Part shown: positions 34,347 through 61,576 of the stretch, piece by piece
Numbering within the stretch: position 1 is the stretch's first letter
Layout of the letters: every line of letters starts with the position of its first letter
Source: an uncultured Oscillospiraceae bacterium
GTDB lineage: Bacteria > Bacillota > Clostridia > Oscillospirales > Oscillospiraceae
NCBI GenBank assembly: GCA_947591105.1
Contig: CANQDL010000001.1
Span: 1-64,000, forward strand
Direction of reading: 5' to 3'
Length of the DNA stretch: 64,000 nt
The notes under the pieces: generated by a model
What the model saw: only the letters and a program-made list of their open reading frames with translations
Told to the model about the DNA's origin: nothing
The model's database searches: none
Position numbers and translations under genes: made by a program

Positions 34347-35522
34347 TTACTTCTCGTTCGGGTACACTTCCCCGTATTTTTGTGCCATGTAATCAGTCAG
34401 CTTTGAGGACTGATCTTGACGGCGGGCCTCCCGGAGATCGGTGTATGTCTGCATCGTGGTCTGGATGTCTGCGTGGCCGAGCATGACCTGTGCGGCCTTT
34501 TCGTCTATGCCAGACTCGTAGCACAGAGTAGCATATCCGTGGCGAAGCTGGTGGGGCGTGAGGGTGATCTTGATGTTGTGGTATATGTACTCCTTCCCTT
34601 GCTTGCTGGTGCGTTTCTCCGGGGTGTCCGTATAAAAACCGACGTCCTTGCAATAATGCCGCCAGCGCCGCCGGAAGGCGTTCTCCTGGAGCGGGCGACC
34701 GTCCGGAGCCGGGAATATGAGAGTGGTGTCAAGGGCGGTCTCCGGGCGCTGCAGGTGCGCCATTAGGCCGGGGAGCAAGTCGATCTCCCGGGTCCCGGCA
34801 TCCGTCTTGGGTTCTTTCAAGACAGGCATCCCGGAGGGGAACACATAGGACTTTGTGACGCTGATCTTTTTAGCCTTGAAATCTATATCCCCCCAGGTGA
34901 GGGCCAGGGCCTCGCCCCGCCGGCAGCCGGTATATAACAGGAGATAGGCGAACAGACCGAAGGTGGCGGACTCCACATTGTCGATGATCGTCTGCATGGT
35001 GTGATCGTCCGGGGCGGAGCGTTTTTTCCTCGGGAGGCCCCGCTGGATGGTGACGGAGGCCACCGGGTTCAACTTGATACAGGCCCCGGGGCGGGTGATC
35101 GCATAGTCGAAAATCATTTTGAGGATGCTCTTTTGCGACTTGACCGTTTTCGCCGCATATCCTTGGAGAGCCATGCGCTGGATAAACTGGTCGATGTCTG
35201 CCGGGGTTATATCCGATATGAGCTCGCCGCCAAGAGCATCCACAGCGCGGTTATAAGAGACCTCATAACAGATTTGGGTATTTCGCTCGATCTTGGGCCA
35301 CTTCCAGTTCATCCAAGCTTCCGCCGTCTCCCGGAAGGTGGGAACCGGCGGCCCGGCCTTCTCCTCCTTCTCCGCGGCCTGTATCTTCACATACAGGACT
35401 TCCGGATCCTTCGCCCGGAATTTCCGCTTTTTCAGGCCGATGGTTCGGGTGCAGTAGTATAACCCGGAGTTGCCGTCAAACGAGAACATGGCGGCATAGT
35501 CAACTTTTTTGGGGCGTCCCAT
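34347..35522 (-). CDS. int: Phage tyrosine recombinase/integrase
   Basis: SAM-like N-terminal domain; TGCRRGEALALTWGDID; HQLRHGYATLCYESGIDEKAAQVMLGHADIQTTMQTYTDL. Confidence 0.97.
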   Translation of the reverse strand: MGRPKKVDYAAMFSFDGNSGLYYCTRTIGLKKRKFRAKDPEVLYVKIQAAEKEEKAGPPVPTFRETAEAWMNWKWPKIERNTQICYEVSYNRAVDALGGELISDITPADIDQFIQRMALQGYAAKTVKSQKSILKMIFDYAITRPGACIKLNPVASVTIQRGLPRKKRSAPDDHTMQTIIDNVESATFGLFAYLLLYTGCRRGEALALTWGDIDFKAKKISVTKSYVFPSGMPVLKEPKTDAGTREIDLLPGLMAHLQRPETALDTTLIFPAPDGRPLQENAFRRRWRHYCKDVGFYTDTPEKRTSKQGKEYIYHNIKITLTPHQLRHGYATLCYESGIDEKAAQVMLGHADIQTTMQTYTDLREARRQDQSSKLTDYMAQKYGEVYPNEK

Positions 35523-35738: not shown

Positions 35739-35924
35739 GTGAAGTACAGCGAACTCTACAAAAGGCTGCGGGAGATAAAGTGCTACATCATAAGGGAGGG
35801 GGCCAATCACTCGATGTGGTACAGCCCAGTGACCGGAAAGACCTTCCCGGTGAGCCACCACAAGGGACAGGATGTCCCAATGGGAACACTAAGAGCGATA
35901 GAGCGGGATGCGGGGCTGAAATAA
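35739..35924 (+). CDS. hicA: HicA family toxin
   Basis: MKYSELYKRLREIKCYIIREGANHSMWYSPVTGKTFPVSHHKGQDVPMGTLRAIERDAGLK. Confidence 0.92.
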   Translation: MKYSELYKRLREIKCYIIREGANHSMWYSPVTGKTFPVSHHKGQDVPMGTLRAIERDAGLK

Positions 35925-35952: not shown

Positions 35953-36354
35953 ATGACAATGGCGAAATATGTATATCCCGCGATCTTCACGCCGGAGCCG
36001 GAAGGGTATTCAATCAACTTCCCCGATCTGGAGAGCTGCTATACATCGGCGCCAACGCTGGAAGAGGGAATGGAAATGGCGGCCGATGTGCTGTGCCTGA
36101 CGCTCTATGGACTGGAGGAGGATGGAAGACCTATTCCAGCGGCCTCTGATCTGCGCACGGTGAAACCAGAGGGGCAGGCGTTCGTAAGTCTGGTTCAGTG
36201 TGACACCATCGAATACCGCCGGTTCTACGATAACAAGGCCGTAAAAAAGACGCTGACCATTCCAGCCTGGCTGAACACGATGGCGGAGCGAAACGGCGTG
36301 AACTTCTCAATGGTGCTCCAGACGGCCCTAAAGCATGAACTGAATATCCAGTGA
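35953..36354 (+). CDS. hicB: HicB family antitoxin
   Basis: YPAIFTPEPEGYSINFPDLESCYTSAPTLEEGMEMAADVL; C-terminal DNA-binding-like IPAWLNTMAERNGVNFSMVLQTALK. Confidence 0.92.
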   Translation: MTMAKYVYPAIFTPEPEGYSINFPDLESCYTSAPTLEEGMEMAADVLCLTLYGLEEDGRPIPAASDLRTVKPEGQAFVSLVQCDTIEYRRFYDNKAVKKTLTIPAWLNTMAERNGVNFSMVLQTALKHELNIQ

Positions 36355-36363
36355 CTATAATCG

Positions 36364-36396
36364 CCCCGGCCCCGTGCCGGGGCAGTTTTATTTTTT
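36364..36396 (+). terminator. hicAB terminator
   Basis: CCCCGGC CCCGT GCCGGGG CAGTTTTATTTTTT. Confidence 0.85.
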
Positions 36397-36579
36397 GGCG
36401 CCGTTCTGCTTCAGTGCTTCAGGGGCCTCCCCATTAAGCACCCTTAATGTCATTTTAAGGATGTGCTTCGCATCTTGCTCGGTCAATTTGTCGATAAGTG
36501 ATTCCCTCTTTTCTCTATCTCGTTCAAGGGAGATCATTGATGCCCGTTTTGCAGAAATCATAATGTAACCAGCCTCCAA
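36388..36579 (-). CDS. Hypothetical small protein
   Basis: 63 aa ORF MEAGYIMISAKRASMISLERDREKRESLIDKLTEQDAKHILKMTLRVLNG. Confidence 0.55.
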   Translation of the reverse strand: MEAGYIMISAKRASMISLERDREKRESLIDKLTEQDAKHILKMTLRVLNGEAPEALKQNGAKK

Positions 36580-36639
36580 TCAAACTACTGCACTGAATAT
36601 CCGGTGAATCCCCACCCCGGCCCCGTGCCGGGGCGTTAT

Positions 36640-37236
36640 TTATTTTGCGCCTTTCTTAAAACAGACATGTATCTCAAGGCCGTAGTTGTAGCCGTTGCCG
36701 CCGAGGATGTCATAATCATCGACGCAGTAATAATCGTCCCAGTGAGACAACAGCCAATGCAGGTCATCCCTTGAAATGTTGCCGACCTGCTCCTGTTCCG
36801 CATACACGCCGACGGCGACCTCGTCACTAAATAAGTACCGTTCCAGCCTAAACTCGGGTGTATGCTCATAGGGAGGGTCCTTGAACCGTATCTGACGGAG
36901 TATAGTCTGGCGGCTGCGGCGGCCATTTTTGAAGCTGGTGCCGACGACGTGGAACGCTTTGGAATAATCGCAGTCCACAGGCGGTTTTACAGGCGGATAC
37001 AGGTAGGCGTGCTCTTCTTCCCATTGGAGCATCTGCCGCTTCCATTCGGCGGTATCCTTCCGGTTCTGTTTCCGTTTGCACTGTGGGCACAGGTCGGCGT
37101 GAAGGTTTGTCGATAGAGTCCGCCGGCCACACTCTTTACACTTCGGGAACGTCCCGGAGAAAACTTTCCAAATGAAGAACCCCATGCCAAAAATGAGGGC
37201 GGCATAAAATAAAAGCACAAATATGGTCGTGGGCAT
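36640..37236 (-). CDS. TM-anchored zinc-ribbon protein with HIRAN-like domain
   Basis: N-terminal TM, CKECGRRTLSTNLHADLCPQC ribbon, FHVVGTSFKNGRRSRQTILRQI...VGVYAEQEQVGNISRDDL. Confidence 0.6.
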   Translation of the reverse strand: MPTTIFVLLFYAALIFGMGFFIWKVFSGTFPKCKECGRRTLSTNLHADLCPQCKRKQNRKDTAEWKRQMLQWEEEHAYLYPPVKPPVDCDYSKAFHVVGTSFKNGRRSRQTILRQIRFKDPPYEHTPEFRLERYLFSDEVAVGVYAEQEQVGNISRDDLHWLLSHWDDYYCVDDYDILGGNGYNYGLEIHVCFKKGAK

Positions 37237-37250
37237 AGCGCGTCCTCCTG

Positions 37251-37874
37251 TTATATTATATTGCTGGTGAAGGCGACGGCCTTGCCGATGATCCGCACGT
37301 CCTCCAGCTGGGATCCCTCAAACTGCAAAACGGGAAAGGTCGGATTTTCCGGGCGGAGTTCCAAACGCCCGGGGTATTTATATACCCTTTTCAGGGTAGC
37401 CTCATCCCCGATAAGGACGGCGGCGATCTCGCCGTTATTTACATCATCCTGGCGACGGATATAAACGATGTCCCCGTCAAAGATGCGGGCAGTTATCATG
37501 CTGTCACCCTTGCACCGCAGGGCGAAGTCCGCGTGGACGTGGGCGGGGATGTCCACCTCGCCGTCCAGGTTCTCCTCCGCCAGGATGGGTTCGCCACACG
37601 CGATCGTCCCCAGGAGCGGGATGCGCCGCATCTCAGGCATCGGGAGGATGTTGTCATAAACGCCACTTTTGGAAAACCGACGAATTGAGGTTTTTCCGAG
37701 AAGGTAGTCAATGGATGTTTCGTAAAATGTGGCAATTAAAATCAAAACTTCAGAATTGGGTTCACGGACGCCCTTCTCATAATTAACATACGTTGTATAG
37801 GGCATATTGAGTTGCTTTGCGGCCTCGCGCATAGTCAATCCTTTTTCTTCCCGGAGGGCCTTCATGCGGTTCAT
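37251..37874 (-). CDS. CI/LexA-like phage repressor (HTH plus S24 peptidase)
   Basis: HTH N-terminus LREEKGLTMREAAKQLNMPYTTYVNYEKG; cleavage-type ACGEP; CKGDSMITARIFDGD; DEATLKRVY. Confidence 0.95.
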   Translation of the reverse strand: MNRMKALREEKGLTMREAAKQLNMPYTTYVNYEKGVREPNSEVLILIATFYETSIDYLLGKTSIRRFSKSGVYDNILPMPEMRRIPLLGTIACGEPILAEENLDGEVDIPAHVHADFALRCKGDSMITARIFDGDIVYIRRQDDVNNGEIAAVLIGDEATLKRVYKYPGRLELRPENPTFPVLQFEGSQLEDVRIIGKAVAFTSNII

Positions 37875-37891
37875 GGTATCACCTCATGGAC

Positions 37892-37920
37892 AGTATTACA
37901 CAAATTGAGTAAATAGTCAA
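37892..37920 (-). promoter_or_regulatory. Repressor promoter with operator O1 in spacer
   Basis: Minus-strand TTGACT (37920-37915), 17-nt spacer, AATACT (37897-37892). Confidence 0.7.
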
Positions 37921-38037
37921 TGGATTTACCCAAATTAGGTAACTTGCACAAATGCGGGTTACTCAATTTGGGTATTATTTTAGCTTTACAAATACCCATT
38001 TTGAGTATAGAATGTCGAATGTACCCAAAATGAGTAA
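37896..38037. promoter_or_regulatory. Five-copy 17-bp operator array between repressor and cro-like genes
   Basis: TTACACAAATTGAGTAA (37896), TTACCCAAATTAGGTAA (37926), TTACTCAATTTGGGTAT (37959), ATACCCATTTTGAGTAT (37992), GTACCCAAAATGAGTAA (38021). Confidence 0.9.
37985..38013 (+). promoter_or_regulatory. Early lytic promoter with operator O4 in spacer
   Basis: TTTACA (37985-37990), 17-nt spacer, TAGAAT (38008-38013). Confidence 0.65.
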
Positions 38038-38055: not shown

Positions 38056-38262
38056 ATGATGTACCCGAATATCACCGCCGAGCGGGCAAAGCGGAAAATG
38101 AGCCTGGAAACGATGGCGCGGAACCTCGGCGTAACCCGTAAGACGGTTTACAACTGGGAGAAGTCAGGGAACATCCCCCAGTCTGCGCTGGAGAAGATGT
38201 CGGAAATGTTCGGATGCCCCATTGACTATCTCCTGGGGCGCTGTGAGAAGCCGGCGGTGTGA
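38056..38262 (+). CDS. Cro-like HTH protein
   Basis: ITAERAKRKMSLETMARNLGVTRKTVYNWEKSGNIPQSALEKMSEMFGCPIDYLLGR. Confidence 0.92.
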   Translation: MMYPNITAERAKRKMSLETMARNLGVTRKTVYNWEKSGNIPQSALEKMSEMFGCPIDYLLGRCEKPAV

Positions 38263-51635: not shown

Positions 51636-52009
51636 TGAAGGCCGGGGAGCGGGACGCCGCCGGGGAAGGCATAGAGGAGGACAGCATCCGGGAGGAAATA
51701 AAGGAGGCGTTCCGCCGGTTAATGACTGCGGACATGGAGAAAACCGCGGAAGAGGTGGCGAAGGTATGCGCGGAGTACGGCATGACGGCGGCGGAGCTCA
51801 TGGGGCTGGTAAAGGGATGCGGGTACAGCCTGGAGGGAACGATGCACGAACTCATGGAAAAGGCCGGGGTGTTCGCCAAGAATCGCCGGGGGCCAACGGG
51901 ATTTGAGGGGAAGCACCCACCGATGGACACGCGCCCGAAGTACACTCCCACGGACAGAACGGGCGGGAGGAAAAAGAAACACGGGCGCGAGAAAGGGAGA
52001 AAGCTATGA
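51632..52009 (+). CDS. Hypothetical phage protein
   Basis: Overlapping start MMKAGERDAAGEG. Confidence 0.55.
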   Translation: MMKAGERDAAGEGIEEDSIREEIKEAFRRLMTADMEKTAEEVAKVCAEYGMTAAELMGLVKGCGYSLEGTMHELMEKAGVFAKNRRGPTGFEGKHPPMDTRPKYTPTDRTGGRKKKHGREKGRKL

Positions 52010-52755
52010 ACAGAGAGATCAAGACGCTCATGGATGCGGCGGAGATATGCGGAGAGAGGCACAACCAGGCGGCGGAGGATGTGAATTATCACCCATGCGT
52101 CGGATGCCCTTTAAGGGGAGTGACGTGCGCGGAGATCACCGCCGGGAAGCCGGGAGCCACCGCCATGATCCAGAGGTTTTGGGTGGTGGACACGCTTCGG
52201 AAGGCCGCCGAGGCCGGCGCTGAAGGCGGGAAGATGACCACAGACGAAGCGTGGGCGAACCTGTCAGCACGGACGAAGAAGTACGCCCTGGAGAACGGGT
52301 TCACGCCCGAAGATATAGCGGCGGATGTTATGGCGTTTGAAGCCCTTCGGAAGATGGGCCAGGCGGAAAAGGCGTGGGACGGCGACACGCTGGGGACGGA
52401 GATCGTGTGGGAAATGCTGACGAATCCGAACCTGGAAAAGAAGGGGCCTGTCAAGGTGTACCTCGCCGGGCCGATGACTGGGAACCCGGAGAGCGGGAAA
52501 CAATTCGCCGCCGCCGAGCGGGTCCGCGGCCTACGGTGCGCCCGGTTCGTGGTGCTGAATCCGCGGGAGTTGCCGGATGGGATGTCCCGGGCGGAGTATA
52601 TGCGGATATGCTTCGCCATGATAGACACGGCGGACATCGTGCTATTCCTGGATGGCTGGGAGAAATCCGCAGGGGCACAGGTGGAGAGGGCATACTGTGA
52701 CTATATCGGGAAGCCGGTTATCAAGATGCCGGCGGAAAGGGATGGGGCCGTATGA
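52006..52755 (+). CDS. Phage protein with DUF4406/nucleoside 2-deoxyribosyltransferase-like C-terminal domain
   Basis: VKVYLAGPMTGNPESGKQFAAAERVR...CFAMIDTADIVLFLDGWEKSAGAQVERAYC. Confidence 0.8.
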   Translation: MNREIKTLMDAAEICGERHNQAAEDVNYHPCVGCPLRGVTCAEITAGKPGATAMIQRFWVVDTLRKAAEAGAEGGKMTTDEAWANLSARTKKYALENGFTPEDIAADVMAFEALRKMGQAEKAWDGDTLGTEIVWEMLTNPNLEKKGPVKVYLAGPMTGNPESGKQFAAAERVRGLRCARFVVLNPRELPDGMSRAEYMRICFAMIDTADIVLFLDGWEKSAGAQVERAYCDYIGKPVIKMPAERDGAV

Positions 52756-53159
52756 CCTGGGCCGGAGATCACAGGAAGAAGTGGACGCCGGAAGAGCGGG
52801 CCGCGATCCATGGAAAGACCGGCGGACGGTGCGCCTATTGCGGAGAGCCGATCACCATCCGGGGGATGCAGGTGGATCACGTTATCCCGATGGAGTTTTA
52901 CCGGGTGTATGCCGCCGAGGGGAAGGATCTGAACGACGTGGACAACCTTCTCCCGGCCTGTAAAAGCTGTAACAATTACAAGAGGTCTCTGACGCTGGAC
53001 AAGTTCCGCCTGGCCCTGGAGAGGATGCCGATGGTGCTGGCACGGGACAGTGTTACATACAGGATCGCCGCCCGGTTCGGGCTGGTGATCCCAGCGCCTC
53101 ACGCGGTCAAATTCTACTTCGAGCAGATGCAGGAAGGAGCGGGCCATGACGATCCGTGA
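52752..53159 (+). CDS. HNH endonuclease
   Basis: GRCAYCGEPITIRGMQVDHVIPMEF...NLLPACKSCNNYK. Confidence 0.92.
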   Translation: MTWAGDHRKKWTPEERAAIHGKTGGRCAYCGEPITIRGMQVDHVIPMEFYRVYAAEGKDLNDVDNLLPACKSCNNYKRSLTLDKFRLALERMPMVLARDSVTYRIAARFGLVIPAPHAVKFYFEQMQEGAGHDDP

Positions 53160-53514
53160 GGCGATAAAGGAGGGCATGGCGAGCCTAAACGCCCCGATGG
53201 CGGAGACCGTACAGATAAGCCGGGAGGCGCTGGCCCACATACTGGAACACGCAGAGATGGACCTGATCCCTGACTTTGAACAGGAGGCCAGGATCATGTA
53301 CAACCGCCGGATGCTTTGCGAGGAACGCTCGCGGAAGGAGCTCGCCGCCAGGGTGCGGGGTGGCCCGAAGTGTGGGCCGAGTTGTCCCCTGCATATTCTC
53401 CGCCATGACAGGATGACGTGTCGGGATGTGATATTGGAGGATCCGGACAAGTCGGAGGAGATACTGAAATCCGCCGGATATTGGGGAGAGGTTCCGTATG
53501 AATACGGCCTATAA
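53146..53514 (+). CDS. Hypothetical phage protein
   Basis: 122 aa ORF. Confidence 0.6.
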   Translation: MTIREAIKEGMASLNAPMAETVQISREALAHILEHAEMDLIPDFEQEARIMYNRRMLCEERSRKELAARVRGGPKCGPSCPLHILRHDRMTCRDVILEDPDKSEEILKSAGYWGEVPYEYGL

Positions 53515-54514
53515 CATGGACTGCATGGAGGCCATGAAAGCTATGCCTGACAAGTTCTTTGACCTCGCTGTTGTAGACCCGCCGTATGGTCTCGGAAAGA
53601 AACTTTTGCGTGGAGGGAACACAGGCGTCGCAAAATTCAAAGACCAATATGCTGAAAACGAGTGGGATGATGAAAGACCGCCTAAAGAGTATTTCGACCA
53701 GCTTTTCCGTGTTTCCAAGAATCAGGTAATATGGGGCGCAAATTATTTCATTGACTATCTCCGCCCGTCAAGAGGCATTATCGCATGGGACAAGAATCTA
53801 GGCGAGCCTCTTAATTTCAGTCATTGGGAAATGGCATGGACATCCTTTGATTGCATAGCGAGAAAGGTGACAATCAGGAGTAATACGGGAGACAGAATCC
53901 ATCCAACGCAAAAGCCGGTGGCGCTATACCGCTGGATATTCCAGCATTACGCCCGCCCGGGAGATAAGATACTGGACACACACCTGGGGAGCGGATCCAG
54001 CCGGATCGCGGCCCATGAGGCCGGGCTGGACTTCATGGGCTTCGAGATAGACCCGGATTATTTTGCCGGGGCGCTGGAGCGGTACGAGGCCGCCGAGGCG
54101 CAGATGTCGATGTTTGTCCAGACCGCCGAGCGGGAGCCGCCGTTTGAAGAGATCGCCAGGGCCTGGGCGGTGACGCGGGGGGTAGCCTTCGGAAGAGGAT
54201 ACACCGCCGGCGCGAAAAGGCTGATCGGAGGGGGCCGTGGCTGGCCCCTTCCCATGAACCTTTTCACACCTATACATTATTTAATATGCGCGTGCGCGTG
54301 TATTTTTTCCGGCTTGGTAAGGGCGGGATTTAGGCGCAAGGGGGAAAATCATGGAAAAGACAGAGTGGTACATCCGGGAGTACAAGTGTGCAAACGGGGT
54401 TTGTGTCAAGACGAAGTTCCCGGCCACCAGGGACGACGGGATCAGAATTGGGTCCCGTCGTTACCAGCGGGAACTTCGGCGGGCAGAAAAGAACGCCACG
54501 GAGGCAAAGCATGA
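53498..54514 (+). CDS. Site-specific DNA methyltransferase (N4/N6 class); run-on C-terminus past about 54235
   Basis: AVVDPPYGLGKKLL; HPTQKPVALYRWI; ILDTHLGSGSSRIAAHEAGLDFMGFEIDPDYF. Confidence 0.88.
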   Translation: MNTAYNMDCMEAMKAMPDKFFDLAVVDPPYGLGKKLLRGGNTGVAKFKDQYAENEWDDERPPKEYFDQLFRVSKNQVIWGANYFIDYLRPSRGIIAWDKNLGEPLNFSHWEMAWTSFDCIARKVTIRSNTGDRIHPTQKPVALYRWIFQHYARPGDKILDTHLGSGSSRIAAHEAGLDFMGFEIDPDYFAGALERYEAAEAQMSMFVQTAEREPPFEEIARAWAVTRGVAFGRGYTAGAKRLIGGGRGWPLPMNLFTPIHYLICACACIFSGLVRAGFRRKGENHGKDRVVHPGVQVCKRGLCQDEVPGHQGRRDQNWVPSLPAGTSAGRKERHGGKA

Positions 54515-55199
54515 GGCCGCCCGGTCTCTTAACAACAACTTCCTCGCCGGGGTGGATAAATACCTGGGGATGGATTACGACGATAAAGCCATGGCGAGGC
54601 TATGCCGGAGAATAGGCATCCCCGAGGAAGATATACCAGCCTTCCTCCATGCGGCCCTGGAAGAGAAGAACGAGGCCGCCCGGATGGCGCTGTACCTGTC
54701 AGCGGATAAAGAGTTTGAGAATTTTATCGACCGGGCAAGGAGGGCCTGTGCAGCCGCCGGTGTGGAGTTCCGCTATTTTTGGGTGACGAGCGACCTTGAC
54801 GGACACAGCCTCCAGCCGGTCCGAGTGCATCATCATATGGTCGCGAACAAGGAGGCGGCGGAGATATGCGCCGCGAAGTGGAACGCCGGGGAGACATGGG
54901 ACAAGAAACTATATGGCGCACACCACGGGGATTTGACGGAACTGGCGGAGTACATGATCTCCCAGGTTAGGAGCATACCGGGAAAGAAGCGGTATCACCC
55001 GAGCCGGACGCTGAAGAAGCCGAAGCCGACGAAGCCGATCAAGGCCAGGAACCCGGCGGCGGAGTTGCGTGTCCCGAAGGGGTGCGAGCTCATATGGCGG
55101 TCAGAGAACTATGCGGGCCGCCCGCAGCAGCTTCGATATTACAGACCGTCAGGCAGCGGAACGAGGGGGGGAGAAGATGATGAAGATGAAGGCGACTGA
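54351..55199 (+). CDS. Rolling-circle-type replication protein (HUH/ORF2-G2P-like)
   Basis: RVHHHMVANKEAAEICAAKWNAGETWDKKLYGAHHGDLTELAEYMISQ...KKRYHPSRTLKKPKPTKP. Confidence 0.7.
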   Translation: MEKTEWYIREYKCANGVCVKTKFPATRDDGIRIGSRRYQRELRRAEKNATEAKHEAARSLNNNFLAGVDKYLGMDYDDKAMARLCRRIGIPEEDIPAFLHAALEEKNEAARMALYLSADKEFENFIDRARRACAAAGVEFRYFWVTSDLDGHSLQPVRVHHHMVANKEAAEICAAKWNAGETWDKKLYGAHHGDLTELAEYMISQVRSIPGKKRYHPSRTLKKPKPTKPIKARNPAAELRVPKGCELIWRSENYAGRPQQLRYYRPSGSGTRGGEDDEDEGD

Positions 55200-56348: not shown

Positions 56349-56717
56349 ATGCCGAAAAAGACCAAAATAAACCGCATAAAGGACGAGAAGGCCAGACTTG
56401 AGTACATTTTTTTGGAAATCAAAGGGGAGAAGAAAGCGGTCACGGAAGGGCTGATCGAGCGGGCCTCCTTCATGCGGGTGGAACTGGAGGAAATGGAAAT
56501 CGACCTCCGGGAAAACGGGTACACGGAGGAATTTTCCCAGGGGAATCAAGAGCCGTATGACCGCCTCCGGCCTATTGTGAACGCATACAACACCATGAAC
56601 GCCAACTATCAGAAAATCATCCGGCAGTTGACAGACCTACTCCCCAAAGACCCGCCGGCTGACCCGGAAGGGGGCGGAGATGGCTTTGAGAACTTTGTCT
56701 CCGGGCGGCAGAATTAA
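56349..56717 (+). CDS. Terminase small subunit (P27 family-like)
   Basis: Position and MREL-EEMEIDLRENGYTEEF...RPIVNAYNTMNANYQKIIRQLTDLLP. Confidence 0.8.
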   Translation: MPKKTKINRIKDEKARLEYIFLEIKGEKKAVTEGLIERASFMRVELEEMEIDLRENGYTEEFSQGNQEPYDRLRPIVNAYNTMNANYQKIIRQLTDLLPKDPPADPEGGGDGFENFVSGRQN

Positions 56718-58392
56718 ATATGCCGCGGACTATAACCCGATCCTGGAATACTGGGAACAGATTGAGAGCGGGAAGATAGAGGTCTCCCGGAAGGTTAGGA
56801 CGCTGTATAAGAAGCTGGCCCATGACGTAAGGAACCCGGGCCGGTGGCATTATTCGGTGAACCGGGCGAATCATGTGCTGGAGTTCGCGGAGAACTTTTG
56901 CCGACAGTCAAAGGGGAAATACGGCGGGCAGCTTGTCCGCCTCATGCTGTGGGAGAAGGCGCTACTGGCGGCGGCCTTCGGTTTTATCGACGGCGAGGGC
57001 CGGCGGAAGTATCAGTTTGTCCTCCTGATCGTCGGAAAGAAGAACGGGAAATCACTCCTGGCGTCCATCGTCGGACTGTATATGCAGGTGGCGGATGGTG
57101 AGCCTGGCCCCGAGTGCTATGCGGTGGCGACGAAGAAGGATCAGGCGAAGATCGTGTGGGGCGAGGCCAGGAGGATGGTGAATAAGTCTCCAACGCTAAA
57201 GCGGCGGATCAAGCCGCTGGTGGCGGAGATGGTGAGCAATTTTAACGATGGGACATTCAAGCCCCTGGCGTCCGATAAGGACACCATGGACGGGCTGAAT
57301 GTCCATTGTGCTTTACTGGACGAGTTGCACCAATGGAAGAACGGGCGGGCGCTGTACGACATCGTGGTGGACGGCATGATCGCCCGGGAACAGCCGATGG
57401 CCTTTATGACATCGACCGCCGGAACTATCCGGGAGGACCTCTACGACGAACTGTATGAAGAGGCCACGATGATAATAAACGGCTACGAGGATCCGCAAGG
57501 GTACACGGATGACCGCTTCCTCCCGGTGATCTATGAGCTCGACGCCCGGGAAGAGTGGACGGTCGAAGAGTGCTGGATCAAGGCGAACCCCTCCCTGGGG
57601 GAAGTCAAGTCAGCGGCGGCCCTCCGGGAGAAGGTCAACAAGGCGAAGAAAAACCCGCAGCTTGTCAAAAACCTGGTATGCAAGGAGTTCAACATCCGGG
57701 AGACAACGAGCGAGGCGTGGCTGACCTTCGAGGAATTGAACAACGAGACCCGGTACGACCTGGAGAAGCTGAAACCAAGGTATGGCATCGGAGGCGCTGA
57801 CCTGTCCAGCACCACGGACTTGACGGCGGCAAAGGTGATCTTCCAGGTTCCCGATGACCCGAAGATATATGTCATGTCGATGTACTGGATGCCGGAGGAT
57901 TTGGTGGAGGAGCGGTCGAGAGAGGACCGCATCCCCTATGAAAAGTGGATTGAAAAGGGCTATATACGGACCTGTCCGGGGAACTCCGTTCATGCGAAGT
58001 ATGTAACGGAATGGTTTGTGGAGGTCCAGCAAAAGCACGATGTCTATATCCCGTGGGTGGGCTATGACTCATGGAGCGCGAAATACTGGGTCGAGGAAAT
58101 GAAGGGGTATTTTGGAGCCTCGTCGATGATCCCGTTGCAGCAGGGATATAAAACGCTGTCCGCCCCCATGAAACAGATGGGAGCGGACCTCCGGGCGAAG
58201 GTCATAGTCTACGACAATAACCCGGTGGACAAGTGGTGCCTGGCGAACACGTCAAAGGTGGAGGACACGAACGGGAATATAAAACCGTTCAAGACGAGCA
58301 ATCACCGCCGGCGGATAGACGGGACGGCGGCGTTACTTGATGCCTACGCCGTGTTGATGGACAAGCGGGACGAATACCACACGATGATTTGA
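56680..58392 (+). CDS. Terminase large subunit
   Basis: VLLIVGKKNGKSLLASIVGLYM Walker A; ALLDELHQWKN. Confidence 0.96.
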   Translation: MALRTLSPGGRIKYAADYNPILEYWEQIESGKIEVSRKVRTLYKKLAHDVRNPGRWHYSVNRANHVLEFAENFCRQSKGKYGGQLVRLMLWEKALLAAAFGFIDGEGRRKYQFVLLIVGKKNGKSLLASIVGLYMQVADGEPGPECYAVATKKDQAKIVWGEARRMVNKSPTLKRRIKPLVAEMVSNFNDGTFKPLASDKDTMDGLNVHCALLDELHQWKNGRALYDIVVDGMIAREQPMAFMTSTAGTIREDLYDELYEEATMIINGYEDPQGYTDDRFLPVIYELDAREEWTVEECWIKANPSLGEVKSAAALREKVNKAKKNPQLVKNLVCKEFNIRETTSEAWLTFEELNNETRYDLEKLKPRYGIGGADLSSTTDLTAAKVIFQVPDDPKIYVMSMYWMPEDLVEERSREDRIPYEKWIEKGYIRTCPGNSVHAKYVTEWFVEVQQKHDVYIPWVGYDSWSAKYWVEEMKGYFGASSMIPLQQGYKTLSAPMKQMGADLRAKVIVYDNNPVDKWCLANTSKVEDTNGNIKPFKTSNHRRRIDGTAALLDAYAVLMDKRDEYHTMI

Positions 58393-58404
58393 GGAGGCGC
58401 TGGG

Positions 58405-59565
58405 ATGGGTGCAATAAAAAATTTCCTGGCCAGGTTCGCCCAGGCCAAAACGGTGAGCCGCCTGGAGATGGTCACGCAGTACGGAGAGGGATATTACGCC
58501 TGGAACGGGAAGCTGTACAAGTCCGACATCGTGCGCGAGGCGATCCGCCCGAAGGCCCGGGCAATCGGGAAGATAGTGGGGAAACACATTCTCACGAAGG
58601 AGAACGGGGACATAAAGGTGAACCCCCGGCCCTATATCAAGTTCCTCCTGGAAGAGCCTAACCCGTACATGACGGGCCAGATGCTGCAGGAGAAGATGGC
58701 GACCCAGTTAATGCTCAACGGCAACGCCTTCGCCCTAGTGGTGCGGGACGATGCCGGCCTCCCGTGTGAGATATACCCTATCCCCGCCGGTGCGGCGGAG
58801 GCGCTGTATGACGAACACGGGGACCTGCATATCAGGTTTACCTACCTAAACGGGAAAAGCAACACATTCCTGTATAGCGATTTGATCCACCTCCGCCGGG
58901 ACTATGCGGAGCGGGACATCTTCGGGGAAAGCCAGGTCGAGGCCCTGGCCCCGGTCATGGAGTGCGTGGGGACGCTGGATCAGGGGATTATGAAGGCCGT
59001 GAAAAACAGCGGCCTCATACGATGGCTTTTGAAGTTCAACACGTCCACCCGCCCGGAGGACGTGAAGGCGCAGACGAAGCATTTTGTCGATACCTACCTG
59101 TCAACGGAGAGCGAGACCATAGGGGCCGCCGGCGTGAACGCGAACGTGGACGCGATCCAGATTGACCCGAAGGACATTATGCCGAATAAAACGCTGATGA
59201 AGGAACTCCGGGATCGGGTCTATGCGTTTTTCAACACCAACGAGAAGATCGTAACATCCTCATTCACGGATGACGAGTGGAACGCCTATTTTGAGGCGGA
59301 GATCGAGCCGGATATATTGCAGTTCACCAACGCCTGGACCCAGCGCCTATTCTCCCGCCGGGAGCGGGCCGGGGGGAACAGGATCGTTTTTGAGGCATCC
59401 AACCTCCAGTGCGCAAGCATACAAACGAAGCTGGCGCTTGTCTCCATGGTAGACCGGGGGGCGCTGACGCCGAACGAGTGGAGGGCAACGATGAACCTGG
59501 CGCCGGTGGAGGGCGGGGACAAGCCAGTCCGCCGCCTCGATACGGAAGTGGTGGACAAGCCGTGA
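58405..59565 (+). CDS. HK97-type portal protein
   Basis: VREAIRPKARAIGKIV...LLEEPNPYMTGQMLQEKMATQLMLNGNAFALVVRD. Confidence 0.95.
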   Translation: MGAIKNFLARFAQAKTVSRLEMVTQYGEGYYAWNGKLYKSDIVREAIRPKARAIGKIVGKHILTKENGDIKVNPRPYIKFLLEEPNPYMTGQMLQEKMATQLMLNGNAFALVVRDDAGLPCEIYPIPAGAAEALYDEHGDLHIRFTYLNGKSNTFLYSDLIHLRRDYAERDIFGESQVEALAPVMECVGTLDQGIMKAVKNSGLIRWLLKFNTSTRPEDVKAQTKHFVDTYLSTESETIGAAGVNANVDAIQIDPKDIMPNKTLMKELRDRVYAFFNTNEKIVTSSFTDDEWNAYFEAEIEPDILQFTNAWTQRLFSRRERAGGNRIVFEASNLQCASIQTKLALVSMVDRGALTPNEWRATMNLAPVEGGDKPVRRLDTEVVDKP

Positions 59566-59603
59566 AGGCTGGACATAAACGGAAGCGGGAGGAGGTGAGG
59601 TAA

Positions 59604-60341
59604 ATGCGTGTATTGCGGATCGTCGGGGTGATATGCCCCGATGACTACGAGTGGTACTACCGCGATTGGCTGGGTATGTCTTGCACTTGCCCTCATAACG
59701 TGCAGGACGCGATCAACGAGGCCGCCGGGGACTTCCTGACCGTGGAGATCAACTCCCCGGGCGGGGAGATCAGTTCCGGGGCGGACATCTACACGGCCTT
59801 GCGGAAGTACGACGAGGCGAACCCCGGGAAGCTGAAAATACAGATCACGGGACAGGCGTGTTCCGCCGCGAGCGTTATTGCCATGGCGGGATATTGCGAG
59901 ATGGCCCCGGTGGCCTTGATGCTCGTCCACAACGTATCACAGGAGGCCCGCGGGAATCACAACGTCATGGAAAAGGTGGCGGAGGATCTGCGGATCGCGG
60001 ATGATGCCCTGAGCGACGCATACGTCAGGAAGAGCGGGATGAGCAAGAAAGAAGTCCTCGACATGATGGAGCGGGAGGCATGGATCACAGCCGTACAGGC
60101 GAAGGATTTGAAGCTGATCGACGCGATCATGTTTGAGGGCCAGGACACGGCCTCGCCTATGGCGGCGAGTCTGTATGATTTGCCGTCCCATGAACAGATG
60201 GAAGCCGCCAAAGAGGCGCTGGCAGCCAGGAAGGCGACGGAGGCAGCGGGAGAGCCGCCGTCCCCGGAAGCCGAGGGCAAAACGGCCAGGGCAAAAGCCC
60301 GGCTGAAACTTTTGACGCTGACGAAAGGAGCGAAAAGATGA
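59604..60341 (+). CDS. ClpP-like head maturation protease
   Basis: INSPGGEISSGADIYTAL; GQACSAASVIAMAG. Confidence 0.95.
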   Translation: MRVLRIVGVICPDDYEWYYRDWLGMSCTCPHNVQDAINEAAGDFLTVEINSPGGEISSGADIYTALRKYDEANPGKLKIQITGQACSAASVIAMAGYCEMAPVALMLVHNVSQEARGNHNVMEKVAEDLRIADDALSDAYVRKSGMSKKEVLDMMEREAWITAVQAKDLKLIDAIMFEGQDTASPMAASLYDLPSHEQMEAAKEALAARKATEAAGEPPSPEAEGKTARAKARLKLLTLTKGAKR

Positions 60342-61576
60342 AGTACAAGGATTATCAGGAGAAGCGGAACGCCCTGACCGAAGAGGCTGACGGCCTCATT
60401 GACGAGGGCAAGATCGACGAGGCGAACGCCAAGATGGACGAGATCAAGGAACTGGATGCCAAGTGGGACGAGAGCGCCCAGGCCCAGGCGAACCTCCGCG
60501 CCCTGGATGGCGAGGCACGGAAGATGGATGTCTCCAATCCCGGCAGGAAGCCCGCCGAGGATGGAGCCGCCCAGGTTGACAAGGCCGGCGACGTGCTGGA
60601 GAACACCAAGGCGGAAGAGCTCTACAAGACCGACGAATACCGGGATGCCTGGGCGAAGCGAATGATGGGTAAGCCCCTCACCAGCACCGAAAAGAACCTG
60701 TACACCCGGGCGAACGAGTTCATCCACACCACCGAGAACACCGGCGACGTGATCCCGGAGACCGTGGCGGCGGGCATCATGTCCGAGATGGAGGGTATGT
60801 TCCCCTACTTCAACGACGTGGAAAAGACCACCGTTCCCGGCATCTTCACCATCATCCGGGGCAAGACCTCCAGCGAGGCGAAGTGGTATGACGAGGCCAC
60901 CGAGACGGAGGACGGCACGGAGACCTTCGACACCGTGACCCTGCAGGGGTGCGAGCTGTCCCGGTCCATTACCGTAAGCTACAAACTCCGCGAGATGGCG
61001 GTCAAGGACTTCATCCCCTACATCCAGCGGAAGATCGCGGAGCAGATGGGCAAGGCCGCCGGCTACGGCGTGACCAACGGCAAGGGCCACGAGAACGACA
61101 AGCCCGAGCCCATGGGCGTCGTTACCCTGCTGAAGAAGCTGGAGAACGAGGAAGCCCATGTGGTGAAGTATGAGAAGGGGAAGCTGTCCTATGTGAACCT
61201 GACCGCTTGCCGGGCGAAGATCAAGGGCCAGTATGCCGCCGGCCTGGCGATCTACGCGAACACGGACACCGTGTGGAACGAACTGGCGAACGTGCTGGAC
61301 AACAACGGGCGCCCCGTGTTCATCCCGGACGCCACCTCCGGCGGCGTGTACAAGGTGCTGGGTATGGTGGTCAAGGAGGATGCCTCCATGGCTGACGGTG
61401 ACATCCTCATGTCGAACGCCGCCCAGGGCTACCATGTGAACACCGCCCGGCCCATGTCCATGGAGACGGAGAATCACGCGAAGCAGCGGCGGACGGACTA
61501 TGTGGCATACTCCGTCATGGACGGCGCTGTGACCGCCGAGAACGCCCACGCCCTCCTGACCCGTTCGGACCCTTAA
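60338..61576 (+). CDS. HK97-type major capsid protein
   Basis: N-terminal scaffold-like coiled coil; GDVIPETVAAGIMSEME...VNTARPMSMETENHAKQRRTDYVAYSVMDGAV. Confidence 0.93.
   Translation: MKYKDYQEKRNALTEEADGLIDEGKIDEANAKMDEIKELDAKWDESAQAQANLRALDGEARKMDVSNPGRKPAEDGAAQVDKAGDVLENTKAEELYKTDEYRDAWAKRMMGKPLTSTEKNLYTRANEFIHTTENTGDVIPETVAAGIMSEMEGMFPYFNDVEKTTVPGIFTIIRGKTSSEAKWYDEATETEDGTETFDTVTLQGCELSRSITVSYKLREMAVKDFIPYIQRKIAEQMGKAAGYGVTNGKGHENDKPEPMGVVTLLKKLENEEAHVVKYEKGKLSYVNLTACRAKIKGQYAAGLAIYANTDTVWNELANVLDNNGRPVFIPDATSGGVYKVLGMVVKEDASMADGDILMSNAAQGYHVNTARPMSMETENHAKQRRTDYVAYSVMDGAVTAENAHALLTRSDP

Follow-up and report, generated by a model that had tools for sequence, protein, structure and literature searches.

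A predicted membrane protein with a divergent HIRAN domain behind the CI repressor gene of an Oscillospiraceae prophage

The window, that is the whole stretch of 64,000 nucleotides analysed here (positions 1 to 64,000 of contig CANQDL010000001.1 from an uncultured gut Oscillospiraceae bacterium), contains a prophage, as is apparent from a tyrosine integrase gene (34347-35522, minus strand) and from the terminase, portal, protease and major head protein genes located at 56680-61576. A gene encoding a CI/LexA-like repressor with HTH_3 and Peptidase_S24 domains (37251-37874, minus strand) is separated from that of a Cro-like HTH protein (38056-38262, plus strand) by an interval with five operator-like sites TACYCANNNTGRGTA (37897-38036; three exact and two with one mismatch). 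The gene of interest (36640-37236, minus strand) starts with an ATG 14 nt past the end of the CI gene (37251, as read from the sequence), with a strong ribosome-binding site AGGAGG (37249-37244, minus strand) 7 nt ahead of it, and encodes a protein of 198 aa. The observation of a genuine gene at this position is confirmed, as is the claim of an earlier note that it follows the repressor directly on the lysogeny strand. A promoter-like site upstream of CI (TTGACT-17-AATACT; 37892-37920, minus strand), identified by a consensus scan only, presumably drives both genes. With the integrase gene farther along the same strand, the placement of the gene in the lysogeny module is supported; it is probably a lysogenic-conversion (accessory) gene of the CI operon and would be expressed in the lysogen.

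The region between this gene and the integrase holds a small ORF of at most 63 aa (36388-36579, minus strand) and, beyond it, genes for a HicB-like antitoxin (35953-36354, plus strand) and a HicA-like toxin (35739-35924, plus strand). As this hicA-hicB pair is complete and encoded on the opposite strand, a role of the 198 aa protein as a HicAB partner was rejected. The 3' end of hicB and the terminator stem following it (36336-36354 and 36364-36395) are repeated at 36589-36607 and 36615-36646, and the two copies (within 36336-36646) flank the small ORF, a possible insertion or duplication. Elsewhere in the window (52006-55199), the prophage encodes a nucleoside 2-deoxyribosyltransferase-like protein together with a DNA methyltransferase, next to a gene for replication initiation. 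An IS3-like transposase pair, recognized by eye, is located at the contig end past the tail genes (G000:C1 79203-80071, L075).

The encoded protein consists of four parts, all read from the minus strand. Residues 2-27 (37156-37233) form a transmembrane (TM) helix according to both the AlphaFold model and the hydropathy profile, which has its maximum of 2.41 (Kyte-Doolittle) at residues 4-22. It is followed by a ribbon with four cysteines (C33, C36, C50 and C53; 37078-37140) in the spacing CxxC-x13-CxxC, by a helical linker seen in the AlphaFold model (residues 51-75; 37012-37086) and by a C-terminal domain (residues 90-196; 36649-36969). The N-terminal TM helix and 4-Cys ribbon of the earlier note are thereby borne out. 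The ribbon probably binds zinc; its top zinc-ribbon profile is zf-FPG_IleRS, a weak match (E 0.008) under the cut-off. The net charge of +2 on the C-terminal flank of the TM helix suggests that the ribbon and the C-terminal domain should face the cytoplasm, and all of the protein except the TM helix is predicted to be cytoplasmic.

The C-terminal domain had been proposed to resemble a HIRAN domain, with a profile and structure comparison to PF08797 as the check. The protein on its own gave nothing convincing against Pfam, PHROGs, NCBIfam, PADLOC or PDB, and HIRAN PF08797 was not matched even at E 10. Compared with HIRAN without its relatives, the sequence reaches an hhalign score of 22.8, with shuffles scoring up to 16.3, and relatives were therefore needed to establish homology. 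When these are included, the domain profile of the family matches a profile of bona fide HIRAN domains over the whole domain with a probability of 97% (E 1e-10, score 60.7), far above the maximum of 17.8 among 200 shuffles of its columns and the 15.4 of the reversed profile. One relative with TM and HIRAN parts (L066) exceeds the PF08797 cut-off directly (27.3 versus 24.7 bits), as do L092, L095, P282, 11865, IPP12 and Javan340, and the family profile picks out the HIRAN domain within RecJ-HIRAN-helicase fusions with E down to 1.3e-10. In the AlphaFold model, the domain (pLDDT about 95) has six strands and two helices, which follow one another as in HIRAN (b-a-b-b-b-a-b-b). Structural searches gave less: the full-length model matched 3k2y, a HIRAN protein by profile, only weakly (Foldseek probability 0.91, E 0.21), and the domain-only Foldseek search against PDB gave nothing convincing, with 3k2y not among the top 50. 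A better match was found among viral predicted structures (E 1.3e-10), to an uncharacterized protein. Against PDB, the full-family profile including the TM parts found no HIRAN match and the domain profile alone reached HLTF at E 0.7 only; the value of E 1e-4 for HLTF appeared only after three bona fide HIRANs had been added to the alignment, and was for this reason discounted as independent evidence. The profile comparison and the predicted topology thus speak for HIRAN, with no Pfam match of the protein itself and weak support from Foldseek. Taken together, a divergent HIRAN domain is supported.

The HIRAN DNA pocket of HLTF needs N90/N91 (PMC4666394), and these align with Y134/L135 here, so that the N-x-x-D pocket motif is absent. 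HLTF D94 aligns with D138, a position held by Gly in most relatives, and an aromatic residue (F102) is kept at the position of HLTF Y72. The pocket Asn pair is missing throughout the clostridial family, in which an RQ-x2-LR motif (R109/Q110) is conserved. Due to the loss of the Asn pair, canonical binding of ssDNA ends cannot be assumed and may have been lost.

Since searches with the single protein failed (tblastn against phages gave no match, and scans of viral and genome contigs no confirmed relative), relatives were taken from whole-genome and profile searches. These originate from the same family and order, from viral contigs and from a sheep-colon MAG labelled 'Clostridia bacterium'; a PF08797 search of the window's own genome found no match. 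The gene family is sparse, being present in 4 of 199 genomes in one search and 5 of 394 in another, and is often carried by prophages. Four pairs of relatives show dN/dS values of 0.09-0.22 (Nei-Gojobori), a set outside which the window gene falls as it had no close relative; such values indicate a functional gene family under purifying selection. The anchor is a single N-terminal TM helix, two TM helices at either the N- or the C-terminus, or a lipobox, and is lacking in L014, L074, Javan487 and P282. That tethering is achieved in such varied ways suggests that the location matters. Some relatives are not near CI and have a divergent HTH gene and the lysis module as neighbours, and three (L004, L092 and L093) are found in contexts with no visible phage genes.

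Several observations were made alongside. One relative (L092:5862-6362) is a predicted lipoprotein (lipobox LSAC) with a Pfam-level HIRAN domain, which would be placed outside the cytoplasm. Another (L070:7856-8770; L009) has two TM helices and a HIRAN-like part, and the segment that joins them is rich in Cys and His but of a different sequence (YHHNKSC...PCIKC), a second and distinct metal-site-like insertion. RecJ-HIRAN-helicase fusions of about 1,200 aa occur in many genomes of the phylum (L081 1-3276; L082-L091), with the domain content confirmed by Pfam for L081 only and the others that were read looking alike. An IS30-like transposase gene lies near the HIRAN/HTH module in several related phages (L068:3599-4645, L071:5721-6761, L015:175-1212, L060:5582-6631 and L064:4455-5501), its HTH_38 and rve domains being scanned in the L068 copy only; in L068 and L071 it abuts apparent host genes. 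It may represent the integrase of a group of transposable phages.

The position between CI and integrase recurs in other prophages. In L094 the order is CI, an 18 nt gap, a 2TM-HIRAN-like gene, a lipoprotein gene, an Abi_2/AbiD gene and integrase; in L074 it is CI, SNIPE (DUF4041/T5orf172), HIRAN-like gene, hicBA and integrase; and in L014 it is HTH, HIRAN and integrase. The remaining examples are annotated prophages or phages in culture. In Staphylococcus aureus phages P954 and P282, CI is followed by HIRAN, a MazF-like gene and integrase, in S. pneumoniae 11865 by a 2TM-HIRAN gene and integrase, and in S. pyogenes Javan487 by HIRAN and integrase. The HIRAN gene of phiARI0285-2, IPP12 and Javan340 lies shortly ahead of the integrase gene, and S. 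mitis phages also have HIRAN genes in this slot. The TM part comes before HIRAN in 11865, after it in IPP12 and Javan340, and is lacking in P282 and Javan487. In two slots the HIRAN gene has a known defence gene beside it, as the DUF4041 protein of L074 is PD-Lambda-1/SNIPE (E 7e-120) and the Abi protein of L094 is AbiD (E 4e-43); the link to defence proposed in the earlier note is thus plausible. In prophages whose CI is related (52-55% identical), this position is taken by other accessory genes, such as a gene for a Cys-rich TM protein in L108 and toxin-antitoxin-like genes, judged by eye, in L109. As these examples were gathered by following hits and not by an unbiased census, they document recurrence, not frequency.

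The slot is modular, in that a basic module of ~65 aa is common to the N-terminus of the 11865 HIRAN protein, to SM1 gp2 (which combines it with TMs and has no HIRAN) and to a stand-alone phiEf11 protein (L100:2356-2550, L106:2501-2695, L104:2501-2698), all encoded shortly ahead of the integrase gene. The P954 HIRAN gene (L097:3606-4459) is annotated as two ORFs, gp05 and gp04, while it is a single ORF in P282, a probable frameshift.

The combination of a HIRAN domain and a membrane anchor, which the earlier note considered unusual, turned out to recur in both Clostridia-type and streptococcal prophages. The pneumococcal version, a transmembrane HIRAN protein of the phiRMV8 lysogeny module, received the name ThaL in 2025, being named once with no test of the gene itself (PMC12637031). 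By this description, ThaL-type proteins share with the window protein a HIRAN domain, often with TM helices, and a gene position in the lysogeny module that follows CI and precedes the integrase gene; the window protein is a zinc-ribbon form of an already known kind of gene. The window family and the streptococcal and staphylococcal HIRANs of the slot have no direct BLAST link; they are connected by profile-profile comparison (probability 80%, score 37.0, shuffle maximum 18.0). In contrast to the latter, the window protein combines one N-terminal TM helix with a 4-Cys ribbon, its HIRAN domain falls below the Pfam cut-off, and it lacks the N-x-x-D motif which they keep. With PF08797 proteins at large (HLTF, Rad5-type, Lp_0118/3k2y and RecJ-HIRAN-helicase), it shares the predicted topology and is matched by profile along the entire domain, whereas it is membrane-anchored, has no helicase or nuclease fusion, and carries the RQ-x2-LR element in addition to having lost the pocket Asn residues. 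SNIPE, a membrane-anchored nuclease which cuts phage DNA during injection (PMC13190303), resembles it in having a single N-terminal TM helix and a cytoplasmic C-terminus (predicted for the window protein), and occupies the same prophage slot as the HIRAN-like gene in L074, but the window protein has neither DUF4041 nor a nuclease domain. The pneumococcal SzaL/SpaL are likewise lysogeny-module accessory proteins and are described as zinc proteins; their description as surface-exposed, with HIRAN unmentioned, sets them apart (PMC12637031). Identity with 'HipI', a HIRAN protein acting as HipA antitoxin (PMC11706625), was rejected as no HipA gene was seen nearby, and the word 'hiran' in an article about S. 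aureus Gp05 proved to be an author name.

The occurrence of SNIPE or AbiD in the slot of two relatives, together with the membrane anchoring, makes a membrane role against incoming phage DNA the leading reading, and a defence role is plausible. The anchor would keep the zinc ribbon and the divergent HIRAN domain next to the membrane on its cytoplasmic side, where, with the prophage silent, the protein would act on the DNA, or a DNA-protein complex, of an entering phage. Superinfection would thereby be limited at the same stage as by SNIPE, with no nuclease domain of its own. The binding of nucleic acid or a complex, and the resulting exclusion, are inferred by us, and the view that the protein is a ThaL-type accessory product of the CI operon limiting superinfection at the membrane is held tentatively, at somewhat less than even confidence. 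Counted against it were the loss of the pocket Asn residues, the members with no TM, those located elsewhere than behind CI, and the lack of a PADLOC match for the protein; in the literature, no member of the HIRAN slot family with a tested function was found. The main alternative, somewhat unlikely in our judgement, is that the protein serves the prophage itself: it would detect incoming or damaged DNA at the membrane and adjust the timing of induction by the S24-type CI switch, with no part in defending the cell. The co-directional gene order, 14 nt behind such a CI, and the union of TM, likely zinc ribbon and HIRAN domain are consistent with this, as is the szaL gene of the pneumococcal phi08B02743 lysogeny module, which is annotated as encoding a surface-exposed zinc metalloprotein and sensitises its prophage to competence, linking activation to competence, with thaL occupying the module of phiRMV8 (PMC12637031). 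The effect of szaL belongs, however, to a different protein, thaL being only named in that work, and HIRAN genes are not confined to the position behind CI and share the slot with defence genes.

The two other alternatives concern the domain itself. The HIRAN fold could serve as an adaptor between proteins and have no part in nucleic-acid handling, keeping, for instance, a membrane or replication protein of the host in place; the family-wide absence of the Asn pair, the conservation of RQ-x2-LR in its stead and the resemblance of the small HIRAN barrel to other small folds (PMC4666394) point this way. The RQ motif is, however, common to the HIRAN domains of RecJ-helicase fusions, the streptococcal and staphylococcal slot homologues retain N-x-x-D, and the aromatic F102 is preserved, and we regard the adaptor function as quite unlikely. 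Very improbable, and largely refuted, is a chance resemblance to HIRAN in an unrelated small membrane protein: the missing Pfam match, the unconvincing domain-only search and the weak full-length match to 3k2y would fit it, but not the profile-profile score far beyond shuffles, the Pfam-level match of L066, the direct matches to RecJ-HIRAN domains and the agreement in topology.

For the divergent HIRAN protein of the window, the competing candidate functions are thus exclusion acting at the membrane and an induction control that responds to DNA entry. Prophages constitute a major source of anti-phage systems, with genes in the interval from CI to integrase as prime candidates. Here one fold, repeatedly linked to the membrane, recurs in this slot across several kinds of host. 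On a broader scale, temperate phages of the Firmicutes may share a so far undescribed class of entry-stage exclusion proteins, a doubtful proposal: HIRANs held at the membrane, co-expressed with the repressor, would trap or sense DNA without cutting it, and in the branch of the window protein the pocket for ssDNA ends would have been replaced and a zinc ribbon added. The annotation 'HIRAN domain-containing protein', present in well-known streptococcal and staphylococcal phages, would thereby be turned into a testable hypothesis, of handling incoming DNA at the membrane or of controlling induction by DNA entry.
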